Source: Anaerolineales bacterium | GTDB taxonomy: Bacteria; Chloroflexota; Anaerolineae; Anaerolineales; UBA4823 | Length of the DNA: 64,000 nucleotides | Direction: 5' to 3' | Assembly: GCA_025057645.1 (NCBI GenBank) | Contig: JANXBJ010000006.1 | Coordinates: 72,142 to 136,141 of the forward strand | Shown here: in pieces, positions 39,991 to 43,096 of the stretch | Position numbering within the stretch: the first letter of the stretch is position 1 | How the letters are laid out: each line of letters begins with the position of its first letter | Notes under the pieces: model-generated | Databases searched by the model: none | What the model saw: the letters and a program-made list of their open reading frames with translations, nothing else | What the model was told of the DNA's origin: nothing | Made by a program: the position numbers and the translations under genes

Positions 39991-40173
39991 CGATCCACAC
40001 GAGGGGGGTCGTATGATGAAGAGAGCCGCTGCTCCGCAAGATGCAACCAATATCAGTCAACACTTCGGTTGCACTCCCTCCTATATGGCTATGGCGGTCG
40101 AATTCCGAGGTAAAAGCGTGCCCAGAATACACGGCCGATCAGCCAGAGACAATTCCCTAAGGATGGATTGCCG

Positions 40174-41376
40174 ATGAAATTCCAGAACGGATCCCTGCCG
40201 ATCTTTGTCATCCTTCTCTCTGGGCTCTTCATAGGCCATACTTTTCGGCCTCCAAGCGTTCTGGCTCAAAGCAAACCCACGCCGACCGATCGCTATTGCC
40301 ATCTTTGCGATCAGGTGGCCACCCAAGCCGTTGTGCGGGTGCTCCTCTTTTGGATGGAGGGCTGCCCACACTGTCACGAAGTCATCGATCATGTTCTTCC
40401 ACCCCTCCGCCAACAATACGGGCGGCAGTTGGAAATTCGGATGATCGAGATTTCCTCGATAGAGGACGTCAATCGTCTCTACGAGATCGGGGAAGGGTAC
40501 GGGCTAAAACCAGAGCAAATCGGTGTGCCCTTCCTGATCATTGGGGAGCATGTGCTCATTGGTTCGCAGCAAATTCCCGCCGAGCTCCCTGCCTTAGTCG
40601 AACGCTATCTCAAGCTTGGCGGTGTGGACTACCCGCAGATCCCTCACCTGGCGAATTTCTCTCCTTCTTCTAAGTCACCTGCGTCCGAACTAGCGAGCAT
40701 CCAACCTACACCCCAACCCCCAACTGGCGAGCCTTCCCCTCTTGCTGTAGTCCAAGCCCAAATGCACGAGCCTGATCAACCAACGCCTTCGGCTCCAAAA
40801 TCCTCGGGATTTACCTTAGCCATCGTCATTCTGATCGGGATGGTCCTTGTCCTAGCCTATGGAATCGGTGCTCTGGTATTGAACAGAGCTATTCCTGTTT
40901 CGGAGCGGTTCAATCATTATGCCTTTCCACTCCTTTCCCTCGTCGGCTTAGGTGTCGCCCTATATTTATCCTACGTTGAGACTCAAGAAGTGGCCGCAAT
41001 TTGTGGGCCGATCGGCGACTGCAACGCAGTGCAGCAAAGCCCCTATGCCAAATTGTTCGGCGTTTTGCCGGTGGGGGTGCTCGGCGCGTTCGGCTACGCT
41101 GCCATCCTATCTATCTGGTTTTGGGGTCGCCTACGCAAAGATTGGTTCGCCCGAAAGGCGAACCTGGCAGTGTTTGTGATGACCCTTTTTGGATTGCTTT
41201 TTTCCATTTACCTCACCTACCTAGAACCGTTTGTGATCAAAGCAGTATGTGCTTGGTGCCTGACCTCAGCGGTAGTTATGACTCTTCTCTACTTCCTGAG
41301 TATCTCTCCTTTGGTCGAGCAATGGCGTTCTGAATTAGAGGTCGAGAACTTAGCGTTCGAAGTAGAAGAAGGCTAG
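40174..41376 (+). CDS. Thioredoxin-like and VKOR fusion protein
   Basis: The 400-residue protein starts with a signal or membrane segment (about 8-30). An extracytoplasmic thioredoxin-like domain (about 40-155) follows with CPHC at 64-67 in WMEGCPHCHEV, a cis-Pro region GVPFLIIG and an extra CHLC (42-45). A Pro-rich linker (165-205) leads to a VKOR domain with about five membrane segments (215-385), with the loop cysteines AICGPIGDC and the quinone-site CAWC. The protein can oxidise cysteines of secreted proteins and pass the electrons to quinone. The start at 40174 follows AAGGATGG. A second VKOR gene lies downstream. Confidence 0.92.
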   Translation: MKFQNGSLPIFVILLSGLFIGHTFRPPSVLAQSKPTPTDRYCHLCDQVATQAVVRVLLFWMEGCPHCHEVIDHVLPPLRQQYGRQLEIRMIEISSIEDVNRLYEIGEGYGLKPEQIGVPFLIIGEHVLIGSQQIPAELPALVERYLKLGGVDYPQIPHLANFSPSSKSPASELASIQPTPQPPTGEPSPLAVVQAQMHEPDQPTPSAPKSSGFTLAIVILIGMVLVLAYGIGALVLNRAIPVSERFNHYAFPLLSLVGLGVALYLSYVETQEVAAICGPIGDCNAVQQSPYAKLFGVLPVGVLGAFGYAAILSIWFWGRLRKDWFARKANLAVFVMTLFGLLFSIYLTYLEPFVIKAVCAWCLTSAVVMTLLYFLSISPLVEQWRSELEVENLAFEVEEG

Positions 41377-41504
41377 AAGGATGCTCACCGAAGACTTTAT
41401 GAAGCGTTACTCCTCTTTGCAATCTAGGCGCGAAGTTACTATGTGTGCCCAGACATGCTCGAAAGCGGATTCTCTAGAAGTGCTTACCGCCCTTGGTGGT
41501 CTCT

Positions 41505-42080
41505 ATGCAATCAACGGAAACCCTCTCTGAGTTATGGCCCGGTTGGCTCGTGCTTGGGTTCGTAGTCCTTGCCCTCCTCTACGGGCTTGCCGCTCTGTTT
41601 AGCAACCGCACTTTTGTGATCCCTCTAAAGCGGTTGAACCTTCTCTTCTCTCTCGTTTGTGCAATCGGCCTCGGAGTGGCAGCTTACATTGCCTACGTAC
41701 AACTCTTTCGAGTGCAAGCAATCTGCGGCCCTCTAGAGGAGTGCAACACGGTGCTACAAAGCCGTTATGCCAAGTTGCTGGGATTCGTCCCCAACAGCGT
41801 GATCGGGCTCATCAGCTATCTAGCTTTAGTTTTTTTGTGGGTTTGGCACGCACGGAGAAAGGGAGACTGGTTAGCCCGGCACTCTCCCCTCTTGATCCTT
41901 GCAATTACTCTGCTCGGCACTCTGCTTTCCGTTTATCTCACTATCTTACAAGTGCTCACGCTCAGGGCGTTGTGCATATGGTGTCTGAGCTCCGCAGTGC
42001 TCATCACGATGCTCTTTTTGCTCAGTGTCTCCCTCTCCCAATCCAACTATGCACCTATCCTAAACCCGGACAACCTATAA
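41505..42080 (+). CDS. VKOR-family quinone reductase, second copy
   Basis: The 191-residue protein has five hydrophobic segments and the VKOR cysteines: AICGPLEEC in the periplasmic loop and CIWC at the quinone site, followed by SSAVLITMLF. It has no thioredoxin domain and presumably acts with a separate redox partner. It resembles the VKOR half of the upstream fusion (ICGPxxxCNxVxQSxYAKLxG in both), so a duplication is likely. The start at 41505 is chosen because no Shine-Dalgarno site supports the TTG at 41493; none is strong for either. No redox partner gene is next to it except the fusion. Confidence 0.88.
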   Translation: MQSTETLSELWPGWLVLGFVVLALLYGLAALFSNRTFVIPLKRLNLLFSLVCAIGLGVAAYIAYVQLFRVQAICGPLEECNTVLQSRYAKLLGFVPNSVIGLISYLALVFLWVWHARRKGDWLARHSPLLILAITLLGTLLSVYLTILQVLTLRALCIWCLSSAVLITMLFLLSVSLSQSNYAPILNPDNL

Positions 42081-42402: not shown

Positions 42403-42885
42403 ATGCCGCTGATCGTTGACGGTCATAACTTGATCGGTCAGATGCCAGAACTCAGCCTAGCCGACGTTGACGACGAGCAACGATTGATTGAGATTCTGTG
42501 CGAGTTTTGCCGTCGGGCAGGGCATACGGCCGAAGTCTATTTCGACAACGCTCTCCCCGGTGCACCTCGGGCAAGAAAGCATGGAAGGCTGACAGCTTAC
42601 TACACGCGCACCGGCAAGAGCGCCGATCAAGCCATTTTTGAGCGGTTGAGTCGCTTGGGCAGAGAAGCTCATAATTGGACTGTCATCAGCTCTGACCGCC
42701 AAGTGCAAACAGTGGCCAGAGCGCATCACGCTCGAGTTCTCTCTTCGAGCGAGTTTGCCCGTCAACTCCGAGCGACGCTTCGTCAAGAGGAAAGGTCTAC
42801 GACAGAATGGAGAGAAGCGCCGGAGATCACCGCAGATGAAATCAAAGAATGGTTGCGATTGTTTAGGGAAAACCGTCCAGAATAA
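42403..42885 (+). CDS. NYN-domain (YacP-like) putative ribonuclease
   Basis: The 160-residue protein is a NYN domain of the YacP/Rae1 type: MPLIVDGHNLIGQMPEL with the metal-binding Asp and the typical HN, EVYFDNALPGAP, KSADQAIFERLSRLGREAHNWTVISSDRQVQTVARAHHARVLSSSEFA with further acidic residues. Such proteins are PIN-like RNases; B. subtilis Rae1 cleaves mRNA in the ribosome A-site. The open frame reaches 42244, but the start at 42403 gives the family N-terminus and matches the promoter, which would be leaderless. The candidate small RNA follows 60 bases behind it. Confidence 0.85.
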   Translation: MPLIVDGHNLIGQMPELSLADVDDEQRLIEILCEFCRRAGHTAEVYFDNALPGAPRARKHGRLTAYYTRTGKSADQAIFERLSRLGREAHNWTVISSDRQVQTVARAHHARVLSSSEFARQLRATLRQEERSTTEWREAPEITADEIKEWLRLFRENRPE

Positions 42886-42920
42886 ATTCCCACAAATCGG
42901 GTAATTCTAATCTAATTTTA

Positions 42921-42951
42921 ATGCAAATTCGACAAATTTAGTGTATATTAT
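42921..42951 (+). promoter_or_regulatory. Candidate promoter of the C-rich-loop small RNA
   Basis: In an AT-rich stretch TGCAAA (42922-42927), an 18-base spacer and TATTAT (42946-42951), or ATGCAA with 17 bases to TATATT (42944-42949). The -10 is good, the -35 moderate. Confidence 0.5.
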
Positions 42952-42956
42952 CAAAG

Positions 42957-43096
42957 CAAGACACCTGCCCTCCCTTTTACTGGTATTTCAGGTGTCCTTC
43001 GCCGGGCGCAACTTCAGTGTGTCCCCCCCACGCTGAAGCTCCCGGTGGACCTCCTTAGATCATCGAGCGTGCCCCCCCCACGCTCGATGACTTTTT
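42957..43096 (+). ncRNA. Candidate small RNA with three C-rich-loop hairpins
   Basis: About 140 bases between a promoter-like sequence and a terminator, with no protein frame. Hairpin 1: GACACCTG (42960-42967) with CAGGTGTC (42989-42996), loop starting CCCTCCC. Hairpin 2: CTTCAGTGTG (43012-43021) with CACGCTGAAG (43029-43038), loop TCCCCCC. A single-stranded linker contains CCTCCTT (43050-43056). Hairpin 3: a 12-base perfect stem (43060-43071 with 43079-43090), loop of seven C, followed by TTTTT (43092-43096), which makes it an intrinsic terminator. Each loop and the linker could pair with Shine-Dalgarno sequences, as known for C-rich motifs of some Gram-positive regulatory RNAs. The family is not known to me. 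Confidence 0.65.

Follow-up and report, generated by a model that had tools for sequence, protein, structure and literature searches.

Organization of the locus

The window, i.e., the whole 64,000-nt stretch of the Anaerolineales contig that was analyzed, encodes on its + strand a 160-aa endoribonuclease of the NYN_YacP family (42403..42885; Pfam PF05991, 73.7 bits), followed by a gap that extends to the stop of a convergently oriented CAP/LysM gene on the − strand (from 43098). The initial annotation had placed a small-RNA gene in a gap devoid of protein frames, with an NYN ribonuclease on one side and a CAP protein on the other, and the positions of the two stops bear out this arrangement, as no protein gene fits between 42885 and 43098. 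The putative small RNA gene (42960..43096, + strand) is about 137 nt in length and single-copy in its own genome; we infer its 5′ start to be the G at 42960 and its 3′ end to be the end of the U tract. Folding of a 143-nt stretch yields −64.1 kcal/mol against a mean of −32.7 kcal/mol (sd 3.4) for dinucleotide-shuffled counterparts (z = −9.2), with 0 of the 200 shuffles being as good.

The fold contains the three successive hairpins that had been proposed (42960-42996, 42999-43048, and 43060-43090), all of them, like the elements between them, on the + strand. Hairpin 1 (42960..42996) is formed by the fully paired (8/8) arms GACACCTG and CAGGTGTC (42960-42967/42989-42996), which enclose a 21-nt loop, CCCTCCCTTTTACTGGTATTT (42968..42988). 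The anti-Shine-Dalgarno (SD)-like CCCTCCC that had been noted in this loop is indeed present but accounts for only its first 7 nt, the rest being TTTTACTGGTATTT with a near-invariant TTAYTGGTA. Hairpin 2 (42999..43048) comprises an outer stem (42999-43006/43041-43048) and an inner stem of 10 nt with one G-U pair (43012-43021/43029-43038), which is capped by the loop TCCCCCC (43022..43028). It is followed by a single-stranded linker, ACCTCCTTAG (43049..43058), with the character of an anti-SD sequence. Hairpin 3, with 12/12 pairs between its arms (43060-43071/43079-43090) and a loop of seven C residues (CCCCCCC, 43072-43078), is succeeded by TTTTT (43092-43096), confirming the U-tract terminator recognized earlier, and the two together constitute an intrinsic terminator (43060..43096). 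The sequences and coordinates of the three C-rich loop elements and of the CCTCCTT in the linker are also as they were first described.

Covariation, constant elements, and phyletic distribution

The RNA would have been called into question if the stems of its relatives had lacked compensatory changes; instead, all 39 base pairs (39/39) in an alignment of 92 sequences show at least one such change. The fraction of paired cells is 93.9%, versus 76.5% in shuffled alignments and 32-42% when the partners are slid by 1-3 columns, and 566 cells are changed on both sides, versus 143 in shuffles. Fitting to the model biases the alignment toward the structure, yet the difference is very large and the changes can be made out on simple inspection. 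By element, pairs changed on both sides amount to 8/8 in hairpin 1 (with 96% of the cells paired), 17/17 in hairpin 2, and 14/14 in the terminator hairpin (helices 4 and 5). For instance, GACACC/GGTGTC of stem 1 is replaced in relatives by GATATC/GATATC or GGTACC/GGTATC. The proposal of a small RNA gene is thus supported by three conserved hairpins with compensatory change in their stems.

The most constant of the loop elements is the TTANYGGTA of loop 1 (82/92), and the CCCTCC-like motif of the same loop is found in 66/92. A run of six or more C residues occupies loop 2 in 74/92, and CCTCC is present in 73 of the 86 members that have the linker, making C-rich unpaired sequence a conserved property of the family. 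A C6 or longer run in loop 3 is seen in only 41/88, and the third C loop is, judging by the alignment, not conserved. Some members from family f12 are missing the linker and the third hairpin altogether, and in many from family f14 the C-rich segment of loop 1 is gone but UUAYUGGUA remains. As no other column of the alignment covaries with UUAYUGGUA, a pseudoknot or kissing partner for this element was rejected.

A DNA search of 60 relatives recovered clear homologs not only from most genomes of the same family but also from another family within the order. A covariance model, built after two rounds of hand-guided alignment, detects the RNA in 118 of 301 Anaerolineales genomes, almost always with exactly one match in each. 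A second model, built from 92 members, was run on two samples, 396 genomes of the class and 400 of the phylum, each of which contained some members of the order; outside the order it gave no match better than E ~2e-5. The marginal matches there, which are without an NYN gene, were rejected as homologs, and we see no convincing homolog of the RNA elsewhere in the sampled class or phylum. A pattern scan for hairpin 1 across 84,980 named species genomes returned 77 stretches, all with titles naming Anaerolineales, Anaerolineae, or Chloroflexi/Chloroflexota; a scan of viral contigs gave no match. One genome first counted as NYN-positive and RNA-negative (L242, family f5) has a diverged copy of the RNA directly after the NYN gene (49.9 bits). 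Hairpins with C6 loops are also found directly after the NYN gene in L245 (family f11) and L246 (family f4; 22.9 bits), possibly representing copies of this RNA that have diverged strongly.

A distinctive upstream promoter element

Upstream of the RNA lies a predicted promoter box (42906..42933, + strand) of 11-bp-spaced repeats, namely TCTAAT (42906-42911), TTTAATG (42917-42923), and a weaker third repeat, TTNGAC (42928-42933), which keeps the 11-bp period. A −10 element, TATATT (42944..42949, + strand), comes 20 nt after the box, with the RNA starting 8-10 nt further. The promoter-like sequence noted at the outset therefore holds as regards its TATATT −10 element and conserved spacing, but it has no sigma-70 −35 element, and a consensus sigma-70 scan called no promoter at the locus. 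Because this simple scan finds none there, the promoter was assessed by comparison. TCTAAT-N5-TTTAATG matches at least 10 of the 13 fixed positions in 88/92 loci, with ~5.5 expected from shuffles, and the spacing between the box and a TATATT-like −10 is exactly 20 nt in most loci; it is the conservation of box and spacing that argues for a promoter. The exact box (TCTAAT-N5-TTTAATG-N20-TATATT) is almost unique to the RNA gene in each genome: a matrix scan of 1.26 Mb of its own genome scores the RNA promoter at 70 bits and the next match at 14.5. On comparative sequence grounds, then, 42960-43096 constitutes a conserved RNA gene equipped with a predicted promoter and terminator of its own.

Spacing with an 11-bp period is typical of OmpR/PhoB- or SARP-type activators, and a regulator acting via the box at the −35 region probably sets the expression of the RNA. 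Membership of a PhoB/OmpR (phosphate) regulon was rejected, given the near-uniqueness of the box and its absence from the region upstream of the pst operon; a second pst-like cluster has two weak boxes in its vicinity, but neither precedes a pst gene.

Conserved linkage to a NYN_YacP ribonuclease gene

The NYN_YacP (Rae1-type) gene is found directly upstream of the RNA and on the same strand in 88/92 loci, mostly with 50-110 nt between its stop and the RNA, and was not found nearby in 4/92. On the downstream side, 83 proteins group into 35 clusters and are encoded in either orientation, with the gene on the opposite strand in ~45% of the loci. No feature of the locus is better conserved than the NYN neighbor; the CAP neighbor is incidental. 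The NYN gene is present in 19 of the 31 genomes without a match to the RNA, in some of which it is directly followed by another gene; it is older than the RNA and independent of it, and its occurrence without the RNA excludes an obligate toxin-antitoxin-like pairing of the two.

The NYN_YacP proteins of Anaerolineales (42403-42885 in the window) end in a conserved tail resembling EVDEWLxLF, which is possibly a short protein-docking motif. Upstream of the NYN gene, the window codes for two adjacent VKOR-like membrane proteins (40168-42080), the second with a Pfam VKOR domain. One relative (L063) has a SAM riboswitch (RF00162, 81 bits; 2823-2971) near its RNA locus.

Comparison with known C-rich small RNAs

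No Rfam family attains a gathering-level score within the window or at the RNA in 20 homologous loci. The best match is to ar14 (RF02344), at 26.7 bits against a gathering threshold of 58.8, and 6C (RF01066) scores 16.8 bits against 47. The ar14 sRNAs, such as NfeR1 of Sinorhizobium meliloti, have three hairpins, each exposing CCUCCUCCC, together with anti-SD motifs, stems of variable sequence, a terminator, and a conserved upstream promoter motif (PMC10746234). This is also the plan of the Anaerolineales RNA, with its three hairpins, C-rich anti-SD motifs, variable stems, terminator, and conserved promoter motif; a three-hairpin anti-SD architecture is therefore not new in kind, contrary to the earlier impression that an RNA with three C-rich loops was without known parallel. 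However, in place of CCUCCUCCC in each hairpin, the Anaerolineales RNA displays CCCUCCC, UCCCCCC, and CCCCCCC loops, and it is further distinguished by the optional nature of its third C loop, the CCUCC linker, the invariant UUAYUGGUA of hairpin 1, the synteny with NYN, and its occurrence in a different phylum (Chloroflexota, as against the alphaproteobacterial ar14).

The actinobacterial 6C RNAs similarly have hairpins with C-runs in their loops, and those of B11, the 6C RNA of mycobacteria, pair with G-tracts in ribosome-binding sites (PMC10470900); however, 6C has two hairpins and is without a conserved 5′ hairpin of the Anaerolineales kind. By analogy, we infer that the Anaerolineales RNA works like ar14/NfeR1 or 6C/B11, while by score it is a member of neither. 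The novelty lies in the family as such, the taxon it occurs in, its UUAYUGGUA module and promoter box, and its synteny with NYN; the library searched contained no paper dealing with regulatory RNAs in Anaerolineales.

Predicted function and alternative explanations

Pairing was evaluated on 378 predicted genes of the same genome with naive start calls. At ≤−9 kcal/mol, loop 1 would pair with 48% of the regions upstream of start codons versus 29% of positions inside genes, and the linker with 22% versus 7%, a preference that any anti-SD sequence would show. The corresponding values for the C6-7 loops are 12% versus 14% and 11% versus 15%. The original proposition that all four elements could pair with GGAGG-type sites is thus too strong: anti-SD behavior is seen for loop 1 and the linker, but the C6-7 loops have no preference for ordinary gene starts. 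Going by what is reported for B11 (PMC10470900), the C-runs would favor only mRNAs with G-runs. GGGGGG, GGGGGA, AGGGAGG, or GGGAGGG occurs near the start of 36 of 1049 predicted genes, a count indistinguishable from ordinary SD variation, and hence we claim no conserved target.

We favor, with a probability of roughly 0.65, the reading that this is a stand-alone gene for a C-rich, anti-SD, trans-acting small regulatory RNA, to which the predicted promoter and terminator of its own, the independence from the downstream gene, and the analogy with characterized C-rich sRNAs all point. The RNA would start near 42960 and accumulate as a stable structured transcript, whose CCUCCUU linker and loop 1 CCCUCCC could pair with SD regions and thereby block initiation or promote decay. 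Loop 2, with its C6-7 run (and loop 3 in those members where it is C-rich), would select the smaller number of mRNAs that carry G-runs close to the start codon. The other half of loop 1, UUAYUGGUA, is neither C-rich nor anti-SD, and probably serves to bind a protein or as a sequence-specific seed. Given this element, and the loss of CCCTCC in some members, the RNA may act mainly by something other than base pairing to SD sites.

Alternatively, the RNA might bind or sequester a specific protein via UUAYUGGUA, perhaps NYN or another RNA-binding protein, with the C-rich loops being secondary. The high constancy of UUANYGGUA (82/92), its survival where CCCTCC is lost, the lack of an intramolecular covarying partner for UUAYUGGUA, the free but compensated variation of stem 1 around a loop that does not vary, and the NYN synteny (88/92) are all in line with such a role; yet strong conservation extends to the CCTCC linker and to the C-run in loop 2, several genomes of the order have NYN without the RNA, and a few RNAs are found apart from NYN, making this explanation doubtful. 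A functional link between the RNA and NYN, e.g., in the decay of blocked mRNAs, is possible, as their synteny suggests. Rae1 of Bacillus, a homolog of YacP, is described as a ribosome-dependent endoribonuclease (Leroy 2017, as cited in PMC11780869), and this, along with an order-wide synteny that preserves strand and mostly a 50-110 nt distance while the downstream gene changes, would agree with a module in which the RNA serves the NYN ribonuclease as a guide, inhibitor, or processing substrate, for example as an SD-bound sRNA that marks mRNAs for ribosome-linked cleavage, or as an RNA antagonist of the nuclease. We regard such a module as a tentative possibility, since 19/31 genomes without a match to the RNA have NYN, several of them with another gene immediately after it, since a promoter of its own precedes the RNA, and since no NYN was found nearby in 4/92 loci. 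A composite scheme, in which the order-wide RNA would block or mark SD regions and NYN/YacP or a protein bound to the UUAYUGGUA loop would remove the blocked mRNAs, appears improbable.

Two further explanations deny the RNA a role in trans. Its position directly after NYN, with the terminator right beside the convergent CAP stop, might be that of a mere 3′-UTR or of a bidirectional terminator region shared by NYN and the gene downstream; but between NYN and the RNA there is a conserved promoter whose spacing is fixed, the structure and loops are conserved far beyond the needs of a terminator, and the RNA is retained whatever the downstream gene and, occasionally, at a distance from NYN, all of which renders this highly improbable. 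A structured RNA with a terminator at its end also recalls a cis-acting riboswitch or attenuator, but regulation of the downstream gene is argued against by the 35 unrelated clusters to which these genes belong and by their presence in both orientations (on the opposite strand in ~45% of the loci), leaving this option with a practically negligible chance. The family as such is strongly supported, with clear modules, order-wide presence, its own promoter element, and a conserved ribonuclease neighbor. It raises two testable questions: did C-rich anti-SD sRNAs originate independently in Chloroflexota, Actinomycetota, and Alphaproteobacteria, and does a nuclease of the NYN/YacP type act together with an sRNA?

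Further C-rich RNAs

Three loci from family f34 of the same class (L198: 1568-1695; L200: 1454-1588; L199: 1584-1761) have a CCCUCC/CCCUCCC linker before a C-rich-loop terminator, with no NYN nearby, and are possibly distant or convergent C-rich sRNAs. Resemblance to the Anaerolineales RNA in L198 and L200, as well as in L201 from family f59, lies in a CCCUCC or CUCCUCC linker before a terminator with a C7 loop, and L198 and L200 additionally expose CCCUCCUU in a 5′ hairpin. However, these three RNAs differ from it in having marginal model scores (26-34 bits), no UUAYUGGUA, and no NYN neighbor that could be found, and are either distant relatives or convergent. L201 (1563-1924) contains two near-identical units of ~205 nt in tandem, each ending in CUCUCCUCCUUAG and a terminator hairpin with a C7 loop; these units have no match in Rfam and look like a duplicated C-rich sRNA gene.
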